From contig NZ_SMGR01000002.1 in the NCBI RefSeq assembly GCF_004346865.1, positions 496,001 to 560,000 of the forward strand: 64,000 nucleotides of DNA, in the 5' to 3' direction. A program made the position numbers and the translations under genes. The DNA comes from Shimia isoporae (GTDB taxonomy: Bacteria; Pseudomonadota; Alphaproteobacteria; Rhodobacterales; Rhodobacteraceae). The notes under the pieces were generated by a model. The model had not been told where the DNA came from. It saw only the letters and a program-made list of their open reading frames with translations, and ran no database searches. Of this stretch, positions 10,112 to 45,696 are shown one piece after another; within the stretch, counting starts at the first letter, position 1; the number at the start of each line of letters is the position of its first letter.

Positions 10112-11823
10112 GCCTGTTCCACCCGAGTTGCGGCCATGCGTTCGTCTGACACGATTTGCCCACCCGCCATTTTGATAAGCCTGTCACATTTGTGGAACTG
10201 GTGATCATCATGAGTCACCGCCAAAACCAACCGACCTGACCCGCTCAATTCCGGCACCAGCACATCATAGAAAAATGCGCGGTTCGCCGGATCCTGATCC
10301 GCTGCAAATTCGTCTAACACGATAATTGGTCGCTGCTCTGCCAGCGCAACCGCCAGCGCCAGTCGTCTGCTTTGACCTGCTGAAAGAGACGTGCTTGAGA
10401 ACTTGTCATCCAGCATGCTGACTCGTCCACGAAGGTCTAGCCGGTCAATATGCTCTTCCAACGCGGCAAGCTCCTGATCGGAAAAGCCATAAGCACGTTC
10501 AAACAGGTGAAAGCCGGAAAAAACGCCTGAAAACAGCTCGCGATAGGCACCCGTCGTTTGTTTGGTCAACGGATGTCCATCAAGCTGCACGTCGCCGCGT
10601 GTCGGATTGCGCAACCCCGTGATCAGCGACAACAATGTCGTCTTGCCTGAACCGTTCCCGCCACATACAAAAACCGTTTCGCCCGGATGAAAAGTCAGGT
10701 TCACGGGTCCTAAATCAAACGGCTCCGCATCCGCTGCGTCTGCATCTCCCAATCGCGCTTCGACGTTCACCAACGCGATTTCCGAGAAGCTGCGTTTGAC
10801 GTCTGTGCTGTCGACCATTGCCTGACTTTGGGCGCCGGCCAAAGCACGATCCACCGTCAGAATGCGAAAATAGGCTGTCTCCGATTGGCTCAGAGCAGGC
10901 AATGCATTGAACAGCGTTTCAATCGGTGTGTTGACCAGAAAGATGATGGTCAGAACCTGAAAAAGAACGGTGGCATCCGCATTCCTCAACGCAGGAAGCG
11001 CGATCACGACAAAGCAGAGCAAGAGAATGATCGCCGCCTGCCCAACTCCCGCACTTGCCGCAAACAAACGTTGGGCATGCATCCGGGCACCGACGTGATC
11101 ATCAATCAAACCGAGCGTCTCCGCTTCAAGTGCATCCCGGCGCGCCCGACGCAACCGCAACTCCTTCCAGCCTCCCAACATGTCACCAACGCGGTCACAA
11201 TACTCTGCAAAAAGCCGTGCGGCCTCATGCCCCCATTTACGCGCAGGCCGATCCAAAAGAACAAACCCGGTCACTCCGATCATGACCGCCACCAGTGCTG
11301 CCGTGCCGGATTCCGGCGACACGTAGAACAAGTAGGGCAACGCAAACGCCAAAACGATAAATGCGCCGACGATTTCTACGATCGCCACCACCGTTGAGGA
11401 CAAGCCATTCACCTCACCGGTCATCGCCGAGTAAACCTGTCCGTGTTTTTGCGACAACAGAAAATCGATGTTGGCTCGCAGCAACTGCTTGGACATCCGC
11501 TCCCGAAGTTGCCGCGCCACCGAAGTCACCAAAAGGAAGGCCCGCATGCGCTGATAGTATGCAGCAGTGAGCATGGTGAGCGCGCAGATCAGCAAAAGCG
11601 ATACAGGCCAGGTAGACAGACCACCCCCCATGCGCGCGGTCTCATTGATTGAGAAAATGAGGCCGGACCGCGCGAAACTTGCAATCAGGGTCAAAGCGAC
11701 AATCGGATCGCGCATCATGCCGCTGCTGGTGGCCAGAAACCGGATCACGATCCAGCGTCGTTGCACCATCGCCTTCAGACTGCCATCACTCGGGTCCGGT
11801 ATATCCTTGAATTCGATGGTCAT
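10108..11823 (-). CDS. ABC exporter, fused TMD-NBD, cyclic peptide (SyrD/YojI) type
   Basis: A 571-residue half-transporter with about six N-terminal TM segments (residues 30-310) and a C-terminal ATPase. Walker A is GGNGSGKTT (about 384-392), the signature is LSAGQSRR, and Walker B is IIVLDEFAADQDP, followed by the switch His in THDDH. The Asp-rich D-loop and the ANIDFLLSQ/GQVYSAMTGEV region of the TMD fit the SyrD/PvdE/YojI cyclic-peptide exporter family rather than MsbA. The ATG at 11823 preceded by GTGAGG is preferred over the GTG at 11832. It leads a two-gene operon with the six-TM protein and faces the inositol lipid operon, so a lipid or lipopeptide flippase role is a reasonable guess. 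Confidence 0.82.
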   Translation of the reverse strand: MTIEFKDIPDPSDGSLKAMVQRRWIVIRFLATSSGMMRDPIVALTLIASFARSGLIFSINETARMGGGLSTWPVSLLLICALTMLTAAYYQRMRAFLLVTSVARQLRERMSKQLLRANIDFLLSQKHGQVYSAMTGEVNGLSSTVVAIVEIVGAFIVLAFALPYLFYVSPESGTAALVAVMIGVTGFVLLDRPARKWGHEAARLFAEYCDRVGDMLGGWKELRLRRARRDALEAETLGLIDDHVGARMHAQRLFAASAGVGQAAIILLLCFVVIALPALRNADATVLFQVLTIIFLVNTPIETLFNALPALSQSETAYFRILTVDRALAGAQSQAMVDSTDVKRSFSEIALVNVEARLGDADAADAEPFDLGPVNLTFHPGETVFVCGGNGSGKTTLLSLITGLRNPTRGDVQLDGHPLTKQTTGAYRELFSGVFSGFHLFERAYGFSDQELAALEEHIDRLDLRGRVSMLDDKFSSTSLSAGQSRRLALAVALAEQRPIIVLDEFAADQDPANRAFFYDVLVPELSGSGRLVLAVTHDDHQFHKCDRLIKMAGGQIVSDERMAATRVEQA

Positions 11824-23656: not shown

Positions 23657-24868
23657 TCATTCCGCCGGAGTTGCCTGATCAGCGGATTGCGGGGCACCCT
23701 TGGCTTTGGCCATCTCTTCCTCGTACCAAAGCGAATGGTGTTCCTTGGCCCATTGTTCGTCGACTTCACCTGTGCCCATCGTTTCGATGGCACCTTCCAT
23801 GCCGAACGAGCCCAAATAGATGTGGGCGATGATGATGCCCATGAAGACAAACGCGATGATCCCGTGCCAGATTTGCGCCAGTTGCATTTCGGCATACGGC
23901 GACAAAACTTCTGGCAACGGCGCACCGCTGATCAACTGCGGCAGCCCCGTGATGTTGATGATTTGGAACGTCTTGGCAAACATCGAAAATTCGAACGGGA
24001 ACAAAAGCGCCAAACCGGACAGCGAAATCGATACCCCAAGGATGATAACCGACCAGAAAATGATCTTCTGACCTGCGTTGAATTTCTTGGCTGGAGGATG
24101 CACACCTTCAGAAAACAGTCCGCCGGCTTGCGCCATCCACTTGATGTCGCCGCGATCCGGAATGTTGTGTTTTATCCATAGGATGAAAACAAAAATCACG
24201 CTCAGCATGAACGCCCAGCTCATATTGTTGTGAGCCCATTTCCCGCCCTGTGCAATCACCGCATAGGCGTCGTGTCCCATCCACGGGATAAGGAATTTGC
24301 GTCCGGCGATCAGGAACAAACCACTGAGTCCAAGGATGACAAAACTGACGCCCATTACCCAATGAACAAACCGCTCAAAAGCATCAAAACGGATGATATT
24401 GCGTCCGGTTTTTGGTCCTTCAATCATGATCTTGCCGCGATACGCGTAGAACGCACCAATGATAACCACCATCGCGCCAAGGAAGTACAGACCATAGGTC
24501 AGAAGTGGCCCTTCTCGGAAAGTAAGCCAACGCATGCCCCCGTCCTGGATCAAAAGTCCGGTCGTGGGGCCGCGCGCCGAAGTGGACGTATCGGCGCTGC
24601 CGTAGCGAAGCGCGCGATAAACGTCGGAATCCGACGCCACACCACGCGTGCCAAGTTGGCCCATCAAGGCCTCCACATTGCCTTGCCCGGTGTTTTTACG
24701 ACGCTCGGCGTCGTCAATTTTTTCGCCCCTTTGACGGGCCATGATGTCTTCAAGCGTTTGCGCACCGCCCGTGGCGGCACGAGGTTGCTCCGCATCTGCC
24801 GAGACGTCCTCGGCCGCGGCGGGAAACGCCAGCATCACACTCAAAACAATCCACAATAGCGCGCGCAT
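23657..24868 (-). CDS. fdhC: Formate dehydrogenase cytochrome b subunit (gamma)
   Basis: A 403-residue membrane subunit. A cleavable signal peptide (LSVMLAFPAAAED) leads a periplasmic N-terminal segment of about 100 residues, then four or more TM helices typical of cytochrome b556-type FdhI. Heme-ligand histidines can be seen in FERFVHWVMG, WAHNNMSW and QIWHGIIAF/AHIYLG. It accepts electrons from FdhB and passes them to quinone or to the cytochrome c next door. The ATG at 24868 has GAGG six bases upstream; the ATG at 24880 is an alternative with a poorly spaced site. It extends the fdhA-fdhB operon; 127 bases separate it from fdhB. The long periplasmic N-terminus is as in other Fdh3C proteins. 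Confidence 0.88.
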   Translation of the reverse strand: MRALLWIVLSVMLAFPAAAEDVSADAEQPRAATGGAQTLEDIMARQRGEKIDDAERRKNTGQGNVEALMGQLGTRGVASDSDVYRALRYGSADTSTSARGPTTGLLIQDGGMRWLTFREGPLLTYGLYFLGAMVVIIGAFYAYRGKIMIEGPKTGRNIIRFDAFERFVHWVMGVSFVILGLSGLFLIAGRKFLIPWMGHDAYAVIAQGGKWAHNNMSWAFMLSVIFVFILWIKHNIPDRGDIKWMAQAGGLFSEGVHPPAKKFNAGQKIIFWSVIILGVSISLSGLALLFPFEFSMFAKTFQIINITGLPQLISGAPLPEVLSPYAEMQLAQIWHGIIAFVFMGIIIAHIYLGSFGMEGAIETMGTGEVDEQWAKEHHSLWYEEEMAKAKGAPQSADQATPAE

Positions 24869-24995
24869 CAGGAACCTCATCCTGTCGAAATCCAAACGGG
24901 CATTTGCGCTCCAGTACAAAGAGCGCCCCGAAATTTAGGTCGAGTTTGCAACAGAAGTGGCGGCAAAGAGTCTGCCGCCACTGTCATTAGCGGTC

Positions 24996-25589
24996 TTAGC
25001 CGCCTTTCTGTTCATAGGCTGTGCCCCAGCCCCAGGCTCCGGTACCGAAACCGCGCGCGACAACCCGCTCGCGATAAATGCCGGAGACAACGTCGCCGTC
25101 ACCGGCAAGCAAGGCCTTTGTGGAACACATTTCCGCACACAATGGCAGCTTGCCTTCGGCAATCCGGTTGCGCCCGTATTTTGAGAACTCCGCGTTGGAA
25201 TGGTTCTCCTCGGGACCGCCTGCACAGAATGTGCATTTGTCCATCTTGCCCCGGCTGCCAAAGTTGCCAGCCTGTGGATACTGCGGCGCGCCAAACGGAC
25301 ACGCATAGAAGCAATAGCCGCAGCCAATGCAAAGATCCTTGGAGTGCAACACCACACCTTCTTCGGTCTGGTAGAAGCAATCCACAGGACAGACCGCCAT
25401 ACAGGGCGCGTCCGAACAGTGCATACATGCCACCGAGATCGAGCGTTCACCCGGATTGCCGTCGTTGATCGTCACAACACGGCGCCGGTTGATGCCCCAG
25501 GGCACCTCGTGCTCGTTCTTGCAGGCGGTGACACAGGCGTTGCATTCGATGCAGCGTTCGCTGTCGCAGAGAAACTTACTTCGTGCCAT
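24996..25589 (-). CDS. fdhB: Formate dehydrogenase iron-sulfur subunit (beta)
   Basis: A 197-residue ferredoxin-like subunit holding four [4Fe-4S] clusters. Cysteine sets can be read in order: CIECNACVTAC, CMHCSDAPCMAVCP, CIGCGYCFYACP and the pair CTFC / CAEMC. It links the molybdo/tungsto catalytic subunit to the cytochrome b subunit. GGAGGAAGAGAA precedes the ATG. There is no C-terminal TM anchor and no signal peptide of its own, so export should rely on the Tat signal of FdhA, as in related Fdh3 enzymes. It starts 12 bases after the fdhA stop. Confidence 0.92.
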   Translation of the reverse strand: MARSKFLCDSERCIECNACVTACKNEHEVPWGINRRRVVTINDGNPGERSISVACMHCSDAPCMAVCPVDCFYQTEEGVVLHSKDLCIGCGYCFYACPFGAPQYPQAGNFGSRGKMDKCTFCAGGPEENHSNAEFSKYGRNRIAEGKLPLCAEMCSTKALLAGDGDVVSGIYRERVVARGFGTGAWGWGTAYEQKGG

Positions 25590-25601: not shown

Positions 25602-28496
25602 TTATGCTGCCCAGATTTTGCAGAGAGTCGTTTTCGTCTCCTGCATCTGGGTCACGCTGTCATAGCCGTAGGTCTGCGCCGTGTTGGTGCTTTCGCCCAA
25701 CACATATGGGTCGGCTCCGGCGGGGTACTTGCTCCGCAGATCCTCTCCCTCGAAATGTCCGCCAAAGTGGAAGGGCATAAAGGCAACGCCTTCGCCAACG
25801 CGATTGGTGACCATGGCCATAACCTTGACCTTGCCGCCTTCAGGCCCTTCGACCCAGACCTGCGCCCGGTCACGTACGCCAAGATTATTCGCATCGCGCG
25901 GATTGATCTCGACAAACATGTCCTGTTGCAGTTCTGCCAACCATGGATTGGAGCGGGTTTCGTCGCCGCCGCCCTCGTATTCCACCAGTCGACCAGACGT
26001 CAGAATGATTGGATAATCCTTGCTGAAGTCCTGCTTCTGGATCGAGGCATACATGGTCGGAAGACGATAGAACTTCCGATCCTCGTAAGTCGGATAGTCC
26101 TCCACCAGATCGCGACGCGGCGTATAGAGCGGCTCGCGATGCAGAGGGATCGGATCCGGGAAGGTCCAAACGACGGCCCGCGCCTTTGCGTTACCAAACG
26201 GCGCACACTCGTGCTTGATCGCAACCCTCTGGATGCCACCAGACAGGTCGGTCTTCCAGTTGGTCTTTGGACCGGCCACAGCGTCAATTGCCGCGCGCTC
26301 CTCATCCGTCAGGTCGCTGTCCCAACCGAGGTCCATCAGCATCTGCATCGTGAACTCTGGGTAGCCATCCTGAATTTCGGAATCTAGGCTCGCAACACCC
26401 TCCGCAAGAAGGTTTTGACCGTCCCTTTCCACACCAAAGCGGGCACGGAAGGTCAAACCGCCCTCGCTGACACGTTTGGACATGTCATAGAGGTTCGGGG
26501 TACCGGGGTGCTTCATTTCGGCTGTGCCCCAGCAAGGCCAAGGCATACCGTAATAGTCACCATCCGCCGGCCCGCCATTTGCGCGCAACGTGGTGCGGTC
26601 AAACGTGTGCTGGTTCGCCATATGCATTTTGATACGCTCAGGCGACTGACCGGTATAACCGATCGTCCACAATCCGCTGTTTAACTCACGGGTGACGCTT
26701 TCGACATTCGGCGTGTTTTCGTCATCCATTTCAATGTTACGGAAGAGCCGATCGCCAAACCCGAACTTGTTGGCAAGCAAACCAATAATTTCATGGTCTG
26801 TCTTGCTTTCGAAAAGCGGTTCCATGATCTGGTCACGCCACTGCAAGCTGCGGTTGGACGCGGTTACGGACCCACGGGTCTCAAACTGCGTAGAAGCTGG
26901 CAGAAGATAGACGCCATCGGTCCGGTCATGAAGCACCGCAGAAACAGTCGGGAACGGATCGATCACGACCAGCATGTCCAACTTTTCCATCGCGGTTTTC
27001 ATTTCCCTGCCGCGGGTCTGGGAATTCGGCGCATGCCCCCAGAGAACCATGGCGCGAACCTTGTCGGGGTTGTCCATGTTGTCCGGGTCTTCCAAAACAC
27101 CGTCGATCCAGCGAGACACCGGAATACCGGTGAGGTTCTGAAGCGACTTTTCCTTGCCGTCGGCACCGGTGGTCTTGGCGAATTGCCCCGCCAGCCAGTC
27201 GGGATCTTCACCCCACACCCGCGCCCAGTGTGCCCAGGCGCCGTTGGACAGGCCGTAGTAGCCCGGCAGTGTGTGAGACAGTACACCAAGGTCCGTTGCA
27301 CCCTGTACGTTGTCGTGGCCGCGGAAAATATTGGTGCCACCACCCGAAGTACCCATGTTGCCAAGGGCCAGCTGCAGAATGCAGTACGCGCGGGTGTTGT
27401 TGTTACCGTTGGTGTGCTGTGTACCACCCATACACCAGATCACGGTGCCGGGTCGGTTGTTCACCATAGTACGGGCCACACGGCGCAATTGCTCGCCCGG
27501 CGTGCCTGTTACACGTTCAACTTCCTCAGGGTTCCACTTTTTCACTTCTTCACGGATCTGGTCCATGCCCCAGACACGGGTGCGAATGAACTCTTTGTCT
27601 TCCCAACCGTTCTCGAAGATGTGCCACAGAATTCCCCATACTAGAGCAACGTCTGTACCTGGACGGAAGCGCACATATTCATCCGCATGTGCCGCCGTGC
27701 GGGTAAACCGCGGGTCGCATACGATCAGGGGAGCGTTGTTACGCTCTTTCGCGCGGAGCACATGGAGCAGCGAGACAGGGTGCGCCTCAGCCGGGTTACC
27801 GCCGATGATGAAGATGGCTTTGGAGTTGTGGATGTCATTGTAGCTATTTGTCATGGCGCCGTAGCCCCATGTGTTCGCCACGCCGGCAACCGTAGTGGAG
27901 TGACAGATACGTGCCTGGTGATCCACGTTATTGGTGCCCCAATAGGCAGCAAACTTGCGGAACAGATAGGCCTGTTCATTGTTGTGCTTGGCCGAACCAA
28001 GCCAATACACGCTGTCAGGGCCGCTCTCTTCGCGGATGTTCATCATGCCGTCGCCGATCTCGTTGATCGCCTGTTCCCAGCTGATGCGTTTCCACTCGCC
28101 GCCTTCTTTCTTCATCGGGTACTTCAGTCGGCGCTCGCCGTGGGCGTGTTCGCGGACCGCTGCGCCTTTGGCACAATGCGCACCCAGATTGAAGGGGCTG
28201 TCCCAACCGGGCTCCTGCCCGATCCAGACGCCGCTTTGCACTTCGGCGACGACGGTGCATCCGACAGAGCAGTGGGTGCAGACAGATTTGACAGTTTGAA
28301 CAGCAGAGTTCGCAGCATCCTGCGCTTGAGCCTGAGTGACGGTGCCACCCGTGGCCCCGATCGCTGCCAGCCCGCCGATGGCGAGGCCGGAGCCGCGCAA
28401 AAACGTGCGGCGATCCACTGATTTTTCAGCGGCGGCAGACAGGATACTTGTCCGCTGGGGGCGTCGCGCAACCCCGTTGGTCTTTTTCCTAAGCAT
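25602..28496 (-). CDS. fdhA: Formate dehydrogenase catalytic subunit (alpha), Tat-exported, cysteine form
   Basis: A 964-residue molybdopterin oxidoreductase that oxidises formate to CO2. A twin-arginine signal (DRRTFLRGSG, residues 28-37) ends near AQAQD. The [4Fe-4S] motif is Cys73, 76, 80 and 108. The metal ligand is Cys198 in ARICHS, with its partner His199, so the enzyme does not need selenocysteine. The bis-MGD domains and a C-terminal molydopterin-dinucleotide-binding domain follow. ATG 28496 is supported by GGGAGG eight bases upstream. A tungstate importer at 36246-38460 suggests W may be the metal. It follows a Tat peptide protein and a TorD-like chaperone, the usual maturation partners. 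Confidence 0.95.
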   Translation of the reverse strand: MLRKKTNGVARRPQRTSILSAAAEKSVDRRTFLRGSGLAIGGLAAIGATGGTVTQAQAQDAANSAVQTVKSVCTHCSVGCTVVAEVQSGVWIGQEPGWDSPFNLGAHCAKGAAVREHAHGERRLKYPMKKEGGEWKRISWEQAINEIGDGMMNIREESGPDSVYWLGSAKHNNEQAYLFRKFAAYWGTNNVDHQARICHSTTVAGVANTWGYGAMTNSYNDIHNSKAIFIIGGNPAEAHPVSLLHVLRAKERNNAPLIVCDPRFTRTAAHADEYVRFRPGTDVALVWGILWHIFENGWEDKEFIRTRVWGMDQIREEVKKWNPEEVERVTGTPGEQLRRVARTMVNNRPGTVIWCMGGTQHTNGNNNTRAYCILQLALGNMGTSGGGTNIFRGHDNVQGATDLGVLSHTLPGYYGLSNGAWAHWARVWGEDPDWLAGQFAKTTGADGKEKSLQNLTGIPVSRWIDGVLEDPDNMDNPDKVRAMVLWGHAPNSQTRGREMKTAMEKLDMLVVIDPFPTVSAVLHDRTDGVYLLPASTQFETRGSVTASNRSLQWRDQIMEPLFESKTDHEIIGLLANKFGFGDRLFRNIEMDDENTPNVESVTRELNSGLWTIGYTGQSPERIKMHMANQHTFDRTTLRANGGPADGDYYGMPWPCWGTAEMKHPGTPNLYDMSKRVSEGGLTFRARFGVERDGQNLLAEGVASLDSEIQDGYPEFTMQMLMDLGWDSDLTDEERAAIDAVAGPKTNWKTDLSGGIQRVAIKHECAPFGNAKARAVVWTFPDPIPLHREPLYTPRRDLVEDYPTYEDRKFYRLPTMYASIQKQDFSKDYPIILTSGRLVEYEGGGDETRSNPWLAELQQDMFVEINPRDANNLGVRDRAQVWVEGPEGGKVKVMAMVTNRVGEGVAFMPFHFGGHFEGEDLRSKYPAGADPYVLGESTNTAQTYGYDSVTQMQETKTTLCKIWAA

Positions 28497-28549
28497 TGTT
28501 TTCCTCCCTTGCTGTCCCGCTTCGGGGACTGGCTCGGTATTCTCGTAAT

Positions 28550-28584
28550 CCCGACCGGTGGGCGTCACGCAACCGGTGGTCGGG
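28550..28584 (-). other. Stem-loop upstream of fdhA
   Basis: The arms CCCGACC (28550-28556) and GGTCGGG (28578-28584) pair, with a further CCGGT/ACCGG pairing inside. It lies in the 108-base gap between the Tat peptide gene and fdhA, within the same transcript. It could set different mRNA stability or expression for the two parts of the operon. No U-run follows, so it is not a clear terminator. Confidence 0.45.
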
Positions 28585-30638: not shown

Positions 30639-30974
30639 AATAGTTGTCTTCCTCCCAAACCGGCCAATTCGCCGGACGTCAAAAAAAGTTTTGATCAAGA
30701 ATATGATCCCAGCGTAGCGCGGATTTGCCAAAGTGTTTCGGAAAAAATGCTGCAGATCGGCAAAAAACTGGACATTTTGTGCCTGCCACCTCTGCCCCTA
30801 GGGAAAGAGCGGACAGTTTGTCCAACTCCGGCAATAACCCATAGAATCACTTGGTTTTTTCGAATCACGCCGCTCGACCCTCAAGCAGGGCGAGAGGGGT
30901 TTACGCAGATCGGGAAACATGCGTTTCTAGGACGCGCAAACGGGAGATTGCAGCCGGAGGAGCCAGACGATCCA
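30639..30974. promoter_or_regulatory. Divergent promoter region of the formate dehydrogenase locus
   Basis: A 336-base stretch with no convincing gene between DUF3305 (-) and the polyferredoxin (+). It holds a perfect GGACA-N3-TGTCC dyad at 30811-30823, an imperfect copy (GGACA...TGTGCC) about 40 bases before it, and AT-rich segments near 30690-30710 that could be promoter elements. A single regulator could control both transcripts from here. Confidence 0.55.
30811..30823. promoter_or_regulatory. GGACA-N3-TGTCC inverted repeat
   Basis: A perfect five-base dyad in the divergent formate dehydrogenase promoter region. The same half-site, as CTGTCC/GGACAG, recurs in the tupB-TRAP region at 38625-38653. 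It is a candidate site for the response regulator encoded at 20843. Confidence 0.45.
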
Positions 30975-32936
30975 ATGCCCAAATCCTTGATTCTTTGTGA
31001 TTGTTCAAACACTTCTAGCGTGCATCCTGACGCACTCGAACGCATTGAGGGCGTGACGTGTTCCAAGATTCACACAGGTCTTTGCACCCATCAATCAGCG
31101 ATCGCTGCAAAGGCCATTTCGAGCGGCGACGTAATCATCGGCTGCCAACAAGAGCGCGCCTTTTTCACCGAAATTGCCGCCGAAATAGATGCCCCCGAGC
31201 CGCAATTTGTCGACCTTAGAGATCGTGCTGGATGGTCCGATGAATCCGCTGGGGCCGGCCCGAAACAGGCCGCCCTTCTGGCCGATGCACTACGCACTCC
31301 TCCTCCTGTCAAAACCTTTGATGTTGTCTCGGAAGGGTTGTGTCTGATCTTGGGCGACTCCGAAGCCGCGCTTGCGGCGGCGAGTGAACTCAAGGAGCAC
31401 CTAAACGTCACCGTTTTGCTTCAGGACGCAGAAGAAGTTCCGCTGGATCGTGGCTTCGAAGTCGTTTTGGGTTCTCTGAAATCCGCGCAAGGGGCGCTCG
31501 GCGGCTTCGACGTTCGCATCGACGCGCTGCAACAGCTGATGCCGGCGGGTCGCGGCCCCCTGACATTTGGCGAACCCCGTGACGGCGGGCGCACAGAATG
31601 TGACATAATCCTCGACCTGCGCCGCGAAACGCCGCTCTTTCCCGCACACGAAAAACGAGAAGGTTACCTACGGGCTGACCCCAACAGCGCCTCGGCCTTG
31701 CGCGCCGCCATTGTCGAAGCGTCCCACCTGGTTGGAACGTTTGAAAAACCGTTCTTTCTCGCGTTAGACCCCACGATCTGCGCGCATTCCCGCGCCGAGC
31801 AGGCGGGTTGCTCCAAGTGTCTGGACAACTGTCCAACGTCCGCAATCAGACCCGAAGGCGACCACGTCGACATCGACCCGAACATTTGCGCGGGTTGTGG
31901 AAGCTGCGCGGCTCTCTGCCCGTCCGGCGCAATCACCTACGATGACCCGCCCACCAGCTTTCTGTTCGCGCGAATTTCCGGCTTGGCGAACGCCTACCGC
32001 GAGGCCGGAGGCGCTGCACCTCGTTTGCTCGTCCACGACCGTGACTTCGGCGCTGAAATGATCTCGCTGTCCGCTCGGTTTGAACGAGGTCTTCCTGCCG
32101 ACGTTATCCCGCTGGATCTTGAGAGGGTCTCGGGTTTCGGTCACGCCGAGATTCTGGCCGCTTTGGCCTGTGGCTTTGCCGCGGTGGATGTTTTGGCGGC
32201 TCCGTCCACAGACCGAAGCGCGCTCGATGCAGAATTGCCGCTTGCACGCGCTTTGTCCGGGCAGACCGACGCCATCCGCTTGCTGGAACCTTCGGATCCT
32301 GCCGCACTGTGCGACGATCTTTTTTCCAGCTCCGCCACCGCGCCTGACGTTGCCCCGATCTTGCCGCTCGGTACGCGCCGCCAGGTCACACGCCTGGCTG
32401 TAAAAACCCTGCAACCTGACCTTGACGCTCCGCTTTCTTTGCCGGATTCCGCGCCATATGGCGCAGTCGTTGTCGACAAAGTCGCCTGCACGCTTTGCCT
32501 TTCTTGTGCCTCTCTGTGTCCCGCCGGTGCGCTGGGTGACAATCCCGACAAACCGCAGCTGCGTTTTCAGGAAGACGCCTGCCTGCAATGCGGTCTTTGC
32601 ACCCAGGTCTGTCCAGAAAATGCGATTTCTCTTCTGCCTCAGTTCAACACCGCCGACAGCGCTCTGTCCCAACAGGTTTTGCACGAGGAGGAACCGTTTG
32701 CCTGCGTAGAATGTGGCAAGCTTTTTGGCGTGAAGTCCACCGTGGAACGCATCATCGAAAAGCTTGAGGGTAAACACGCGATGTTCGCGACGTCGGATGC
32801 GGCCCGCATGATCCGCATGTGTGACGATTGTCGGGTCAATGCGCAGTTTCACCAACAGAACAATCCGTTTGCAGCTGGCGAACGCCCACGCGTGACAACC
32901 ACAGACGACTACCTGTCAAAACGCCGGGATCACTGA
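30975..32936 (+). CDS. Polyferredoxin: multi-[4Fe-4S] protein of the formate dehydrogenase locus
   Basis: A 653-residue soluble protein. Four ferredoxin-type cysteine sets are visible in two pairs: CSKCLDNCP and CAGCGSCAALCP near residues 280-320, and CTLCLSCASLCP and CLQCGLCTQVCP near 505-555. A further CVECG and CDDC pair follows near 575 and 617. The N-terminal third has a CDCSNTS start and another cysteine group (CTH) but no familiar enzyme fold. It has no signal peptide, so it is cytoplasmic. Divergent from DUF3305, it is a common companion of Fdh3 operons in Rhodobacterales. It probably moves electrons or helps build Fe-S clusters for FdhAB. ATG 30975 has GGAGG twelve bases upstream. 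Confidence 0.8.
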   Translation: MPKSLILCDCSNTSSVHPDALERIEGVTCSKIHTGLCTHQSAIAAKAISSGDVIIGCQQERAFFTEIAAEIDAPEPQFVDLRDRAGWSDESAGAGPKQAALLADALRTPPPVKTFDVVSEGLCLILGDSEAALAAASELKEHLNVTVLLQDAEEVPLDRGFEVVLGSLKSAQGALGGFDVRIDALQQLMPAGRGPLTFGEPRDGGRTECDIILDLRRETPLFPAHEKREGYLRADPNSASALRAAIVEASHLVGTFEKPFFLALDPTICAHSRAEQAGCSKCLDNCPTSAIRPEGDHVDIDPNICAGCGSCAALCPSGAITYDDPPTSFLFARISGLANAYREAGGAAPRLLVHDRDFGAEMISLSARFERGLPADVIPLDLERVSGFGHAEILAALACGFAAVDVLAAPSTDRSALDAELPLARALSGQTDAIRLLEPSDPAALCDDLFSSSATAPDVAPILPLGTRRQVTRLAVKTLQPDLDAPLSLPDSAPYGAVVVDKVACTLCLSCASLCPAGALGDNPDKPQLRFQEDACLQCGLCTQVCPENAISLLPQFNTADSALSQQVLHEEEPFACVECGKLFGVKSTVERIIEKLEGKHAMFATSDAARMIRMCDDCRVNAQFHQQNNPFAAGERPRVTTTDDYLSKRRDH

Positions 32937-33673
32937 TGCGCTATCGGTGCTCCAAGGTCAGCGGGGTCCATTGCGGCCACGTAAGCAACGATGTCCTCGA
33001 TCTCCTCCAGCGTTACGGTCACCGGCGCAATCGGACTCGGACGCGTTTCATCAAACTCCTCGATGACCTCGGGAATGATGGTGAAGGCAGGATGGGGATT
33101 GAGAACATAGAAAATCTCGAACCGTTCCTGCCAATCCGCCATGGTACGCAACACCGCAAAGGAAGGTGTCGAACCGATTCCCGCCATCCGGTTGATTTCT
33201 CCAACCACATGGCAACGCCCACAGGCCCGCAAACTCGCGTCCTGCCCCTTAAGTGCATCGCCGGTCAACACAACGGCGATCGCTTCTTCCTCCGGCGCCG
33301 CAGGCTCCGCAAATACGGTCACACCGTCAACTTTGTAACTCAACACGGTGCGCAGACCGATTTCGCTGGAGAGCCACACAACGAAAGTCTCTGCATGCGG
33401 GCTGTCAGCGGTCGACCGCACGCCGTATCCCACGTCTTCTCTGGCAAATACCGGCATTTCACCGACTTCGATAACCACTTCTGCATCCGTGTCGACAACC
33501 GTCACCCGGATACCGTGTTTGAGCGCGAACCGCGGCAACATGAACTTCAAAAGACCGCTATCCGTAATCTCTTCCGGCGCGGAGAGCGTGAGCGTCTTTC
33601 CCTGTGCGCCCGCCGAACCGGCCAACCACACAACGCATGCAAGAACGCAAAAAAGAAACCGAACAAAACCCAT
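32930..33673 (-). CDS. Periplasmic TupA-like domain fused to cytochrome c
   Basis: A 247-residue exported protein. After a signal peptide (about residues 1-24, ending SAGAQG), residues 25-125 read like the N-terminal lobe of an anion-binding protein: LTLSAPEEITDSGLLKFML parallels the TTSFHNSGLADVLL start of TupA at 36246. The second half carries a heme c motif CGRCH (151-155). The first lobe is shortened, so anion binding is uncertain. It converges on the polyferredoxin with a seven-base overlap. It may be an electron-transfer partner of formate dehydrogenase with a residual or sensory anion site. Confidence 0.7.
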   Translation of the reverse strand: MGFVRFLFCVLACVVWLAGSAGAQGKTLTLSAPEEITDSGLLKFMLPRFALKHGIRVTVVDTDAEVVIEVGEMPVFAREDVGYGVRSTADSPHAETFVVWLSSEIGLRTVLSYKVDGVTVFAEPAAPEEEAIAVVLTGDALKGQDASLRACGRCHVVGEINRMAGIGSTPSFAVLRTMADWQERFEIFYVLNPHPAFTIIPEVIEEFDETRPSPIAPVTVTLEEIEDIVAYVAAMDPADLGAPIAHQ

Positions 33674-33741: not shown

Positions 33742-33942
33742 ATGAGCGAAGACTTCAACATGACAATGCGTAAGTTCCTCAAACAGGTCGGCGTGACCTC
33801 CCAGCAGGCGATCGAAGACGCAATGCGGACCGCCGGTGCAGAAGCCACCGCGGGCAAGGAATTCACCGCCAGGATGGTTCTGACTATTGACGGCCTGGAT
33901 ATCGAACACGTTGTCACCGGACAGATCAAAGGGCGCGAATGA
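33742..33942 (+). CDS. Small conserved protein (DUF6494-like)
   Basis: A 66-residue protein beginning MSEDFNMTMRKFLKQVGVTSQQ. It is soluble, with an N-terminal helix and a strand-rich C-terminal half (RMVLTIDGLDIEHVVTGQI). It resembles the DUF6494 family, which I know only as a neighbour of Mrp and formate dehydrogenase genes. Its TGA is immediately followed by the ATG of the Mrp-type ATPase, so the two are translationally coupled. Function unknown; an Fe-S or cofactor assembly role is suggested by context. Confidence 0.7.
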   Translation: MSEDFNMTMRKFLKQVGVTSQQAIEDAMRTAGAEATAGKEFTARMVLTIDGLDIEHVVTGQIKGRE

Positions 33943-35007
33943 ATGGCAACTCGTGACGAAGTTCTGAATGTTCTCAAAGACTTGAAAGATCCCGTATCGG
34001 GAAGCGATCTCGCGTCTTCCGGTATGGTCCGCGCCCTGAATGTGGACGGCGGAGAAGTCCGGTTCGTGATGGAAATTGACCCGGCGAACGCCTCTGCGCT
34101 TCAATCGGTCAAAGCCGAGGCTGAAGACCGGATCGCAGCGCTCGACGGGGTCGACAAAGTGTCGGTTGTGATGACCGCACACGCCACGCCAAAGGCACCA
34201 CCGGATTTGAAACCGAACCGTCCGGCTCAACCTCAAGGCCCTCAAAAAATACCGGGAATCGACCGCATTCTCGCTGTTGCGTCCGGCAAGGGCGGTGTCG
34301 GCAAGTCGACTGTCTCCGCCAATCTGGCCGCTGCGCTGGCCGCCGAAGGCCGCCGCGTTGGATTGCTGGACGCAGACGTCTACGGCCCCAGCCAGCCCAG
34401 AATGCTGGGTGTTTCCGGACGCCCATCAAGCCCTGACGGAAAGACCATTCTGCCAATGCGCAATCATGGCGTGACAATGATGTCCATCGGCCTGATGACC
34501 CGTGAGGAAGAAGCGGTCGTGTGGCGCGGCCCAATGCTGATGGGAGCGCTCCAACAGATGCTCAATCAGGTGCAATGGGGTGCTCTGGACGTGCTGATCG
34601 TGGACCTTCCGCCCGGAACTGGCGATGTCCAGATGACGCTCGCTCAAAAAGCGGAACTGACAGGAGCCGTCATAGTCTCTACGCCGCAGGATATTGCCCT
34701 TTTGGATGCTCGCAAGGGCATCAATATGTTCGAGAAACTTGGCACGCCGATAGTCGGAATGATCGAAAACATGGGCACGCACATCTGCTCAAATTGCGGC
34801 CATGAAGAACATGTCTTTGGTCACGGCGGTGTCGCAGCGGAGGCTGAGAAACTTGGCGTCCCCCTGCTTGCCGAGATCCCACTTGCCATGGATATCCGCA
34901 TTGCCGCCGACGGGGGCGCACCAATTGTCGTCAGCAAGCCTGACGCACCGCAGGCGCAGGCCTTCCGATCCCTCGCACGTTCTCTGATCGAAAGCGGAAA
35001 CGCATGA
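33943..35007 (+). CDS. apbC: Mrp/ApbC-type iron-sulfur cluster carrier ATPase
   Basis: A 354-residue P-loop protein. An N-terminal MIP18/DUF59 domain (about residues 1-80) precedes the Mrp ATPase: deviant Walker A SGKGGVGKS (114-122), the DADVYGPSQPRMLG block, and a Cys-X-X-Cys (CSNC, about 284-287) that holds a bridging Fe-S cluster in the dimer. It transfers [4Fe-4S] clusters to apo-proteins. It is flanked by DUF6494-, DUF4444- and DUF6505-type genes next to the formate dehydrogenase locus, so supplying clusters to FdhAB or the polyferredoxin is a likely job. The ATG directly follows the previous stop. Confidence 0.9.
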   Translation: MATRDEVLNVLKDLKDPVSGSDLASSGMVRALNVDGGEVRFVMEIDPANASALQSVKAEAEDRIAALDGVDKVSVVMTAHATPKAPPDLKPNRPAQPQGPQKIPGIDRILAVASGKGGVGKSTVSANLAAALAAEGRRVGLLDADVYGPSQPRMLGVSGRPSSPDGKTILPMRNHGVTMMSIGLMTREEEAVVWRGPMLMGALQQMLNQVQWGALDVLIVDLPPGTGDVQMTLAQKAELTGAVIVSTPQDIALLDARKGINMFEKLGTPIVGMIENMGTHICSNCGHEEHVFGHGGVAAEAEKLGVPLLAEIPLAMDIRIAADGGAPIVVSKPDAPQAQAFRSLARSLIESGNA

Positions 35008-35729
35008 CGTCGACACCACAATTCCCTCCCCTGTTTGAGGGGATGGAACTTACAGGCATGACCGACCCCTTTGCCAAGGCTCAGCTTCAGGCAACAGTCG
35101 GATGCGACGCCGGGCTCGTGGTTTACAACATGGCCGCGGATCAACTTCGCGCGGCCATTGTATTCGCTCCCGAAGTAGGGCTGGAACAGGCGATGCCTGT
35201 TCTCGTTTGTTGTGCGATAGGCTTTCAAAACGCTCTTGGTGCGCTGGCACCGCCCGAAGTCGGGGTGCATCTGGACTGGAACGGTGGATTGTATGTGAAC
35301 GGAGCTTCCTGCGGTCGGATACAGGTCGCGGCATCAACGCATGACTCCGGAGAAGATCCTGATTGGATGGTCGTCGGGTTGGAGCTTCCGCTGCTGCCAA
35401 TAGACCCTAACACACCCGGAAATGCACCAGACCAGACGTGTCTGTTCGAAGAAGGTTGTGTTGATATCGCCTCCGAAGACCTTCTGTCCGCGTGGGTTCG
35501 TCATACGCTTGTATGGATCAACCGCATGGAAGATTCCGGTCTCAAACCGCTTCATGACGAATGGAGGGGTCTCGCCAAGAACGTCGGGGAGGACGTCTCC
35601 TTTTCCATCGGCGACACGCACTATGAAGGCGTATTTGTCGGAGTTGACGAACACTTTGGCATGTTACTACGCGACGGCAATGAAACCCGGCTGATCCCTC
35701 TCTCAACCCTTTTGCAAGGAGCCGCCTGA
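35004..35729 (+). CDS. Biotin/lipoate ligase-like protein with DUF4444 domain
   Basis: A 241-residue protein. The N-terminal part (about residues 8-165) resembles the biotin/lipoyl ligase fold: PEVGLEQAMPVLVCCAIGFQNALGAL and the HLDWNGGLYVNGASCGRIQVA region with its conserved NG. The C-terminal 70 residues (KNVGEDVSF onwards) match DUF4444. The central lysine and arginine expected for a catalytically normal lipoate ligase are not obvious, so it may act on something other than lipoyl domains. It overlaps apbC by ATGA and the next gene by one base, as a fixed member of this set. Confidence 0.72.
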   Translation: MTSTPQFPPLFEGMELTGMTDPFAKAQLQATVGCDAGLVVYNMAADQLRAAIVFAPEVGLEQAMPVLVCCAIGFQNALGALAPPEVGVHLDWNGGLYVNGASCGRIQVAASTHDSGEDPDWMVVGLELPLLPIDPNTPGNAPDQTCLFEEGCVDIASEDLLSAWVRHTLVWINRMEDSGLKPLHDEWRGLAKNVGEDVSFSIGDTHYEGVFVGVDEHFGMLLRDGNETRLIPLSTLLQGAA

Positions 35730-36208
35730 TGCATCTCGCACGCGCCATTCATTTCGACGAAAGCGACCAACGCATCTTCTTTAATCCGGCTCGCACCGGT
35801 GAATGGGCGATCAGCGGAGGTTTCGAATTTTCGAACTGGGGTGAAGGCGACCTGACGGGAAAATCTCGTCAGGCCTTCGCAAACGGCTGGCTCGGTATCG
35901 AAACTTTTGGACGCGTCACTTTCGTGGCTGTCACCTCGATTGAACAAGCAGAACTGGACACCTTGGAACAGGCCTTGGCGCAGCACTTTGTTGCTTTATA
36001 TGGAGCGCCTTCACTCGAGGCTGCCTTGCCGGTCGCAAAAGACGAACTGCGCCACATGATGGAATTGTGTGACGAACATGACCCCAACACGCTTTTGACC
36101 GTCAGCAGAGAGCTGACTGACACAGGAGTGAAAGAGCAATTTCGTTCGATAAAGCCGGCCGAGGCCGAACTGGAACAGTTTGCCATTCACTCTGTTCCGG
36201 ATGAATGA
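35729..36208 (+). CDS. Conserved hypothetical protein (DUF6505-like)
   Basis: A 159-residue soluble protein without signal or TM segment. The start MHLARAIHFDESDQRIF and the GGFEF pattern match the DUF6505 family as I recall it. The C-terminal half is helical and acidic. It overlaps the DUF4444 gene at TGATG, so the four genes DUF6494-apbC-DUF4444-DUF6505 form one operon. No activity is known; a shared role in maturing a metalloenzyme is the contextual guess. Confidence 0.68.
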   Translation: MHLARAIHFDESDQRIFFNPARTGEWAISGGFEFSNWGEGDLTGKSRQAFANGWLGIETFGRVTFVAVTSIEQAELDTLEQALAQHFVALYGAPSLEAALPVAKDELRHMMELCDEHDPNTLLTVSRELTDTGVKEQFRSIKPAEAELEQFAIHSVPDE

Positions 36209-36245: not shown

Positions 36246-37046
36246 CTATTCCGCGTTAAACGTAAAAAGCTGTTCCCCGTTTAACTGATACCCGTTGATC
36301 AGCTCTTTTGAGCGATCACTCACCAGCCAGGTCTCAAGCTTCGTCGCCAGCTCGGCCGCAACATGCCCGTGCTTCTCTGCGCTCACAGGCAAATAGGCAT
36401 ACTGGTTGAACAGCTCCGGATCGCCGGCGAACAGCAGCGCCAGATCACCCTTGTTGCCAAACTTCAACCAACTCGCTCGGTCCGACATGATGTAGGCATT
36501 CATACCGGACGCGGTATTGAGAGCCGCCCCCATGCCTGCGCCTACTTCGTGATACCAACCAGAGCTCCGATCCCGAACGCCAGTGGCGTCCCAAAGCGAC
36601 AACTCTTTCTTGTGCGTTCCGCTGTCGTCTCCGCGGCTGACAAACGCCGTTTCCGAGTCAGCAACAGCTGCCAACGCATCAGGAGCGGTTTCGGCAGCGG
36701 CCACTGCGGCTGGATCATCGGACGGGCCGATCAGCACAAAATCATTGTACATGATTTCGGTTCGATGGGTTCCATAGCCGCCTCGTACAAAAGCTTCTTC
36801 GGCCTTTTGAGAATGCACCAGAATCGCATCAACGTCACCGGCCTCACCAAGCCGGATCGCTTGCCCCGTGCCGACCACCAATAGCTGCACATCCAAACCA
36901 AGATCGGCCTTGATTTCGGGCAATAGAACATCTGCAAGACCAGAGTTGTGAAAAGATGTGGTCACGGCCATTTTCATGGTGTCCGCCGTCGCCGTTCCAC
37001 CGGACACAACCAAAGTTGCGGCCATCACGACTGCTCTTAATGTCAT
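36246..37046 (-). CDS. tupA: Tungstate ABC transporter, periplasmic binding protein TupA
   Basis: A 266-residue binding protein with a signal peptide (residues 1-22, TATA-D). The mature start MKMAVTTSFHNSGLADVLLP contains the TTS...SG motif of the TupA family. VGTGQAIRLGEAGDVDAILVHS and VSRGDDSGTHKKE are further hallmarks; the TTS and RGDDSGTH loops ligate the oxyanion. TupA binds tungstate in preference to molybdate. It overlaps tupC by ATGA. Its presence near a formate dehydrogenase suggests that the enzyme is W-dependent. Confidence 0.9.
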   Translation of the reverse strand: MTLRAVVMAATLVVSGGTATADTMKMAVTTSFHNSGLADVLLPEIKADLGLDVQLLVVGTGQAIRLGEAGDVDAILVHSQKAEEAFVRGGYGTHRTEIMYNDFVLIGPSDDPAAVAAAETAPDALAAVADSETAFVSRGDDSGTHKKELSLWDATGVRDRSSGWYHEVGAGMGAALNTASGMNAYIMSDRASWLKFGNKGDLALLFAGDPELFNQYAYLPVSAEKHGHVAAELATKLETWLVSDRSKELINGYQLNGEQLFTFNAE

Positions 37047-37762
37047 TCGACAATATCTCCTTCAATGAATGCGCGCGCTTCCGGAGTTTTCGGGTTTTCA
37101 AAAAATGTCGCGGCAGGCGCCGCTTCGTGGATAAGGCCATGGTGCACAAACCAGACATCATCTGCCAGCCGTCTCGCCTGACCAAGGTCGTGTGTGGCCA
37201 TGACAACCCGCGTGCCTTCTTCACGAGTGGCAAGCAGCAGCTCTTCGAACTCGCGCGTTGCGCGCCCGTCCAGATTGGCACAGGGCTCGTCCAGAAAAAC
37301 AATCTGCGGGTCGCGGATCAGGGCCCGTGCGAGGGCCATTTTTTGGCGCTCGCCGCCAGACAGGACATGTGCGGGTTTACTGCCGCTGTCACTCAGACCG
37401 ACGCGTTCCAGCCAATCTGCCGCCTTAGACCGAGCCGCTTCCCGACCGACACCGTGCACGATCAGGGGGTAGGCCACATTGTCCAGTGTCGTGCGCCGCA
37501 TCAGAATTGGTGTCTGGAACACAAAGGCCTGCTCTGCACGCGCCTCGGGTTGCGGTACCTGCCACTTCAACGTGCCTTTCGAAATGCGCTCCATTCCATG
37601 AAAGAGCCGAAGCAGCGTTGTCTTGCCTGCACCGTTGGGTCCCATGACAATCGTCAGTCCGTCCGTCTCTAATTCTGCGGAAATCGGTCCGACAAGTACT
37701 TTGCCCCGGCGTCGCACCACAGCCTCACTTACACGAAGCGGAAGGATAGGCGTTTTCACCAT
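37043..37762 (-). CDS. tupC: Tungstate ABC transporter, ATP-binding protein
   Basis: A 239-residue ATPase with Walker A GPNGAGKTT (about residues 40-48), signature LSGGERQKMALAR, Walker B IVFLDEP and the switch His in ATHD. The ATG at 37762 overlaps the permease by seven bases; longer frames run inside the permease. It powers import of tungstate captured by TupA and channelled by TupB. Confidence 0.9.
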   Translation of the reverse strand: MVKTPILPLRVSEAVVRRRGKVLVGPISAELETDGLTIVMGPNGAGKTTLLRLFHGMERISKGTLKWQVPQPEARAEQAFVFQTPILMRRTTLDNVAYPLIVHGVGREAARSKAADWLERVGLSDSGSKPAHVLSGGERQKMALARALIRDPQIVFLDEPCANLDGRATREFEELLLATREEGTRVVMATHDLGQARRLADDVWFVHHGLIHEAAPAATFFENPKTPEARAFIEGDIVE

Positions 37763-38460
37763 CGGCCACTCCTTTCTGTCCGCGACAGGCTGTGAATGAT
37801 CAGGTTCACCGCCACGGCCAGTCCAATCAGGACAAAGCCCAGCGCAAGCGCCAGAGCAAAATTGCCCTTGCCAGTCTCCAGCGAAATCGCCGTTGTCAGC
37901 ACACGCGTTGCATGGTCGATATTGCCGCCCACGATCATGATGGCTCCCACCTCGCCGATCCCGCGTCCGAAGCCGGCCAGAGAGGCCGTCAGCAGCGCCC
38001 TGCGCCCGTCCCAGAGCAAAGTACAGATCCGTTGCCATCGCGATGTGTTCAGCGAAATCAGAAGGTCATGGTACTCAGCCCAGAGGTCACGGATCGCCTG
38101 ATGTGAAATCGACGCTATCAGTGGCGTGAGAATAATCACCTGCGCGATGATCATCGCCGTTGGCGTAAACAACAAGCCAAAGACACCAAACGGTCCCGAC
38201 CGGCTCAACAGGATATAGACGATCAGCCCGACCACCACAGGAGGCAGTCCCATAAGCGCGTTGAGTGTGGCGATCACAAACCGACGGAACCGGAACCGCC
38301 GCACCGCAAGCCAGCATCCCAGAGGCAGCCCGATCAGCGAGGAAATCAGCACAGCTGTCAGCGTCACTCGCAGCGACCGCAACGAGATCTCGATCAGATC
38401 GGCATCTAAAGTGAGGATGAGTTGCCCCGCCTTGAGCAACCCTTCGACAATCTCGTTCAT
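37756..38460 (-). CDS. tupB: Tungstate ABC transporter, permease
   Basis: A 234-residue inner-membrane permease with about five TM helices (starting near residue 15). The EAA-like loop reads ...LLTASLAGFGRGIGEVGAIMIVGGN (about 165-190), typical of TupB. ATG 38460 is chosen because the transmembrane core begins there and the next upstream in-frame start lies in a poorly conserved stretch. First gene of the tupB-tupC-tupA operon; the promoter lies in the following 336-base region. Confidence 0.9.
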   Translation of the reverse strand: MNEIVEGLLKAGQLILTLDADLIEISLRSLRVTLTAVLISSLIGLPLGCWLAVRRFRFRRFVIATLNALMGLPPVVVGLIVYILLSRSGPFGVFGLLFTPTAMIIAQVIILTPLIASISHQAIRDLWAEYHDLLISLNTSRWQRICTLLWDGRRALLTASLAGFGRGIGEVGAIMIVGGNIDHATRVLTTAISLETGKGNFALALALGFVLIGLAVAVNLIIHSLSRTERSGRW

Positions 38461-45406: not shown

Positions 45407-45559
45407 TGCACGACCTTTCAAACCGTTCTGCCGCGCAGCAATAAACGGATTACGCCGCTTGGGAAAGGCTCGAAGAACAAAAGCCCCTGTGCTGTGGCCA
45501 AGTCCTCCCTACCCTCGGAATCCAGCTTGCGAAAGCTGTCGGTCGCCACTACGGTCGCG

Positions 45560-45650
45560 CCCACCTCGGGGTGTCTGCAAACGCAGGCTGAGATGCACGA
45601 ATGCGAACCCGTTGAACCTGAACCGGTTAAGACCGGCGGAGGGAAGGCCG
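45560..45650 (+). ncRNA. TPP riboswitch (THI element)
   Basis: The conserved thi-box segments occur in order: CTCGGGGTG, GCTGAGATG, the CGAACCC...GAACCTGAACCGGTTAA block and GACCGGCGGAGGGAA. It lies 47 bases upstream of the thiB start, on the same strand. In Proteobacteria TPP binding usually sequesters the ribosome site or promotes early termination, so thiamin pyrophosphate should switch the transporter off. Confidence 0.95.
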
Positions 45651-45696
45651 ACATGACGTCCTCGCTCACTCCGCCCGTCGCAATTTGGAGGATGCC

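Follow-up and report, generated by a model that had tools for sequence, protein, structure and literature searches.

A natural fusion of a single TupA-type lobe with a cytochrome c, linked to formate dehydrogenase clusters of Rhodobacteraceae

A reverse-strand gene of Shimia isoporae (contig NZ_SMGR01000002.1) encodes a secreted protein of 247 residues in which one lobe of the tungstate-binding protein TupA is joined to a monoheme cytochrome c. The gene, here termed HCYT, lies at 32930-33673 of the 64,000-nucleotide window that was analysed (contig positions 496,001 to 560,000), beside genes for a Tat-exported formate dehydrogenase. Its architecture is well supported: the N-terminal domain is the whole discontinuous lobe A of TupA, with lobe B removed from the middle. 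We assign a probability of about one half to the proposal that HCYT is a periplasmic redox partner of this formate dehydrogenase, probably a tungsten enzyme, and that the lobe has been re-used as a docking module that does not bind oxyanions. Public plasmid records label the family as hypothetical proteins or plain c-type cytochromes, and a description of HCYT was not found in literature on tungsten formate dehydrogenase in Roseobacter and on fusions of cytochromes with binding proteins.

The reading frame runs from an ATG at 33671-33673 to a stop codon at 32930-32932, and its translation confirmed the original prediction that CGRCH follows a TupA-like part. By inspection, residues 1-23 (33605-33673) form a predicted Sec signal peptide with a charged start, a hydrophobic stretch modelled as a helix over residues 2-23, and an AGA-Q end. 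The N-terminal lobe segment, residues 26-70 (33464-33598; 'SGLLKFMLPRFALKHGIRV'), has a strand-helix-strand-strand order and an AlphaFold2 pLDDT of ~97; it was assigned by hhalign to TupA residues 22-78 and by HMM matches to the PDB entries 3muq and 3lr1. Alignment to lobe A only places the junction at residues 71-80 (33434-33463), where lobe B (~125 residues, TupA 79-203) is missing. The C-terminal lobe segment, residues 81-123 (33305-33433; 'FVVWLSSEIGLRTVLSYKVDGVTVF'), by itself matches the TupA C-terminus with a P of 9e-10 in hhalign and residues 237-273 of 5my5 by PDB HMM. A variable linker at residues 126-139 (33257-33298) was recognized from identity by region, with family means of 32% in the linker, 40% in the lobe and 62% in the cytochrome. 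The remaining residues 140-247 (32933-33256) constitute the cytochrome c domain, in which the heme-attachment motif CGRCH occupies residues 151-155 (33209-33223).

Comparison of single sequences detects the relationship to TupA only marginally, with BLASTP against the TupA of the window returning 23% identity over 64 residues (E 0.012) and direct BLASTP and phmmer searches being too weak to decide. A profile built from 30 HCYT relatives placed the TupA-type structures 3muq, 5my5 and 3lr1 among its best matches in PDB sequences, its start aligning with the TupA N-terminus and positions 88-123 with the TupA C-terminus; a lobe-only profile matched the same entries with E values of 2.7e-5, 1.2e-4 and 8.5e-4, respectively. 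In the published TupA structure, lobe A comprises residues 2-76 and 201-251, and lobe B residues 91-200 (PMC5517513). With lobe B cut out of TupA, hhalign aligned the HCYT domain over 98 of 103 columns (P 3e-10) with a score of 58, compared with a best score of 23 in 60 column shuffles. Addition of 14 more diverse TupA proteins brought this comparison to 99 of 103 columns and a P of 6e-17. TupA lobe B alone gave no hhalign match to the domain (P 0.6-0.67), and in a control with the two lobe A segments in reversed order one segment alone still matched. The TupA resemblance is thus above chance by profile search, profile-profile comparison and shuffles. Its earlier description as half-length holds for size but not for a continuous half, as TupA 22-78 and 204-266 are present and ~79-203 are absent.

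AlphaFold2 predicts a compact lobe (mean pLDDT 95.7), while a pTM of 0.54 for the whole protein leaves the relative arrangement of the domains unfixed by the model. Foldseek ranked three TupA-type structures first or near first for the modelled lobe, superposing at 1.6-2.2 Å over 56-58 columns with E values of 0.0025-0.006, none under 0.001. These values are modest because the lobe A fold is interrupted in TupA, and for the same reason hhalign and Foldseek match whole TupA one segment at a time. In its own genome, a search with the lobe profile returned TupA as the sole further match, the second hit being the TupA C-terminus, and all 14 class-level loci that were matched through the N-terminal half and checked encode TupA proteins.

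Residue conservation was counted over 72 fusion proteins, and both cysteines and the histidine of the CxxCH motif are kept in all of them, which supports the heme c domain originally predicted; the motif is invariant in the form CxRCH. Pfam Cytochrom_C (PF00034) scores the window protein at 16.4 bits against a gathering score of 21.3, and 50 of the 72 members match it weakly at E up to 0.1 (best 9e-4). Beyond CxRCH, His194 (33092-33094; 72/72) is alone among His and Met residues in being invariant; it also occurs in all 10 aligned stand-alone relatives, and the usual distal Met position is Ile215 in 69 of 72 members, with no conserved Met there. From this pattern, His194 is the predicted distal ligand, and the heme is predicted to be bis-His ligated (His155 and His194) and of low potential. 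Photosystem II cytochromes c549/c550 (PsbV) are bis-His ligated and, like HCYT, monoheme. They are the best single-sequence PDB matches of the HCYT heme domain, although at E values of 0.07-1 that are not significant; the PsbV partner differs from that of HCYT, and Pfam Cytochrom_C550 is matched by just one of the 72 members.

HCYT is single-copy in its own genome. Among 101 genomes of the family, 42 returned a match, in most cases with 37-50% identity across the greater part of the protein; its closest named relatives are Shimia species, with 77% identity. Two of the 42 genomes (G004, G054) carry only a stand-alone heme domain outside the formate dehydrogenase cluster. The window encodes, on the reverse strand, the cytochrome b561-type membrane subunit FdhC (23657-24919; PF01292, E 8e-23), the 4Fe-4S subunit FdhB (24996-25589; Fer4 domains) and the Tat-exported alpha subunit FdhA (25602-28568), a constant neighbour that matches TIGR01591 at E 7e-145 but under the curated cut-off. 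A Tat protein, TorD, DUF3306 and DUF3305 follow, then a forward-strand gene for a 656-residue 4Fe-4S protein (30966-32936; Fer4 domains) that converges on HCYT and is tail-to-tail with it in nearly every locus. Divergent from HCYT are the forward-strand genes for DUF6494, Mrp/ApbC, a biotin/lipoate-ligase-like protein and DUF6505 (33742-36208), identified by Pfam and NCBIfam and conserved in order. These four are constant companions of this formate dehydrogenase and may have a role in cofactor or cluster assembly. The tungstate transporter genes TupA-TupC-TupB (36246-38460, reverse strand; NF041772 at E 9e-57, PBP_like_2, ABC_tran, BPD_transp_1) come next here and in some other genomes. Apart from the Tup genes, this gene order with HCYT in it is constant: it was seen in 20 of 20 family genomes examined and, as far as contigs reach, in all 80 named loci. 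The fdhGHI-TorD-DUF3305-DUF3306-fer4 operons described previously share these neighbour genes, but cytochrome c is mentioned nowhere in the text on them (PMC4464133).

Several further observations concern the window and its surroundings. The window TupA (36246-37046) is a divergent branch of TupA that keeps all cleft residues and scores 192 bits against the NCBI cut-off of 400 bits for tung_bind_TupA (NF041772). In genome G404 (L198 region), as in the L123 locus, a pair of TupA-type matches lies in close proximity; these may be duplicates. Rfam detected no Moco/W-cofactor riboswitch in the window, its sole match there being a TPP riboswitch at 45557-45661.

The association with formate dehydrogenase extends to gene content. 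FdhA is present in 40 of the 42 genomes with HCYT (p 2e-14 across the 101 family genomes, ignoring shared ancestry), and in the remaining two the cluster is present on broken contigs. TupA occurs in 53/53 genomes with FdhA versus 21/48 without it (p 9e-12, again ignoring shared ancestry), which supports a tungsten enzyme. The original prediction placed HCYT near a tungsten enzyme, and this part of it is supported by the constant linkage of HCYT to formate dehydrogenase genes that occur together with TupA. HCYT itself is absent from formate dehydrogenase clusters at six or more well-assembled loci (L162, L165-L169) and is therefore accessory, not essential for the enzyme. These clusters are complete and of the same type, their neighbouring genes close up, some to within tens of bases, and they constitute a natural presence/absence series for HCYT.

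Other alphaproteobacterial families have the cytochrome domain by itself, in most cases in frames of ~125-160 residues, and often in a formate dehydrogenase cluster and ~1 kb from tupA (L210-L212). A tree of the cytochrome domain with 60 fused sequences put nine stand-alone forms outside the fused clade and three (L173, L174 and L209) among the fused ones without firm resolution; for these three the tree cannot settle between losses of the lobe and early branches. One fusion in the ancestor of the Rhodobacteraceae group with a few later lobe losses would be the simplest account. L173 and L174 are stand-alone heme-domain relatives in two Rhodobacteraceae genomes, outside the formate dehydrogenase cluster. 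The L209 protein (10553-10900 of that locus) is 56% identical to the fused domain and sits exactly in the HCYT slot without a TupA lobe; the lobe is therefore dispensable in some lineages.

The original prediction also gave the lobe an oxyanion site that could join metal status with electron flow, and here the alignments point the other way. Desulfovibrio TupA lines its cleft with TTTS, His59, Arg118, Thr124 and Asp170 (PMC5517513), which our alignment maps here to T29, T30, S31, H78, R138, T144 and D189; all seven positions are invariant in 31 TupA proteins. The TTS triplet is present in none of the 72 fusion proteins, which have mainly Pro, Asp/Glu/Ala and Ala/Glu at those positions, and the cleft His of lobe A is replaced. 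The Arg, Thr and Asp are absent, having been deleted along with lobe B, and HCYT does not possess the two-lobed ligand cleft of TupA. With these residues lost or deleted, an oxyanion site is very unlikely, and a connection of metal status to electron flow has no basis in the sequence. TupA homology and the gene neighbourhood speak for a lobe that tunes electron flow on binding an oxyanion such as tungstate, but one lobe alone cannot close over a ligand, and together with the residue losses this makes such binding highly implausible. A charge reversal relative to TupA marked by the invariant R48 and K52 was also considered and dropped, as other alphaproteobacterial TupA proteins carry a similar PRFxxKTG, variably.

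As neither TupA-like oxyanion binding nor closure is open to it, the lobe is most readily interpreted as a docking module. The signal peptide and c heme of HCYT, together with the Tat signal of FdhA, imply that HCYT would encounter the enzyme at its periplasmic head. We infer that HCYT would pass electrons to FdhAB in the periplasm or to the membrane subunit FdhC, or accept them from either, and so add a further way in or out for electrons next to the quinone route, while the lobe, no longer binding tungstate, would serve to dock the cytochrome onto the dehydrogenase complex. This reading is favoured by the lobe A architecture, the loss of the oxyanion residues, the constant cluster link, the distal His and the constraint on the lobe, and also by the stand-alone cytochromes that share this His and lie in formate dehydrogenase clusters elsewhere among alphaproteobacterial families. 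Against it stand the route to quinone that FdhC already offers, the clusters that lack the gene, the unfixed domain arrangement and the lobe-less form in L209. An alternative is a lobe that is a passive leftover spacer, with the cytochrome domain alone doing the work. Stand-alone cytochromes exist, one of them in the HCYT slot, and between Shimia relatives the rate of change in the lobe is about four to five times that in the cytochrome domain (dN ~0.21 versus 0.046; rate ratios are rough, with synonymous sites near saturation). Even so, this dN is low against near-saturated synonymous change, and P47, R48, F49, K52, W100 and G106 of the lobe are invariant in 72/72, a pattern that suggests a lobe kept under constraint. 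Its fold is also predicted with high confidence, and the many fused sequences on the tree are set against at most a few losses. We therefore regard a passive spacer as rather unlikely.

Neighbouring genes of maturation type (TorD, DUF3305, DUF3306, Mrp and the ligase-like gene) raise the alternative of a factor for maturation, activation or protection of formate dehydrogenase, like MxaJ or XoxJ, whose heme would sense redox state without passing catalytic electrons; activation of XoxF has been proposed for XoxJ (PMC7391723). Such a role is improbable, given that a conserved c-type heme domain, found alone in other families, fits electron transfer better and that most examined clusters without HCYT retain all maturation genes. 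Descent of the lobe from TupA and the presence of TupA in all 42 genomes with HCYT could instead point to a lobe that has the TupBC permease as its docking site, tying the uptake of tungstate to the redox state of formate dehydrogenase. TupA tracks FdhA equally in genomes without HCYT (13/13), however, and so there is no separate link between HCYT and TupA; a special association of the two was rejected as following from the FdhA link, to which HCYT adds nothing. With TupA within 10 kb in only 23 of 80 named loci, docking on TupBC appears quite doubtful, and a ligand-free lobe serving there as a signalling arm, through which the redox state of the cytochrome controls tungsten uptake, is if anything a shade less plausible.

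The proposed redox partner has a precedent in cytochrome cGJ of Methylacidiphilum, a XoxG-XoxJ fusion that serves a lanthanide methanol dehydrogenase (PMC8498564); XoxF-dependent growth needs both XoxG and XoxJ (PMC7391723). Like HCYT, cGJ combines a cytochrome c with a periplasmic-binding-protein module and is associated with a metal-dependent periplasmic C1 dehydrogenase. It is the closest working analogue, but an analogue only: HCYT has a single lobe and is linked to a formate dehydrogenase of the molybdopterin type, not to a PQQ alcohol dehydrogenase, and it matched none of the NCBIfam families for quinoprotein-associated binding protein, XoxJ or XoxG. HCYT would work like cGJ, having arisen independently. 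Its lobe shares the fold and sequence of both lobe A segments, in the same order, with secreted TupA proteins (3lr1, 5my5, 3muq; NF041772), near whose TupABC genes it is found in many genomes, and differs from them in that lobe B and all oxyanion residues are gone and a heme c domain has been gained. Engineered half ribose-binding proteins show that a single lobe of such a protein is able to fold by itself (PMC9815098); they are man-made, of type I fold and not part of a fusion, whereas HCYT carries a natural single lobe of TupA type.

HCYT offers a natural example in which a two-lobed binding protein has been reduced to one lobe and re-used within a redox protein. Alongside XoxGJ, it suggests repeated recruitment of the binding-protein fold as a partner of metal-dependent periplasmic C1 dehydrogenases. 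For marine Rhodobacteraceae, HCYT is a candidate electron carrier in aerobic formate oxidation.
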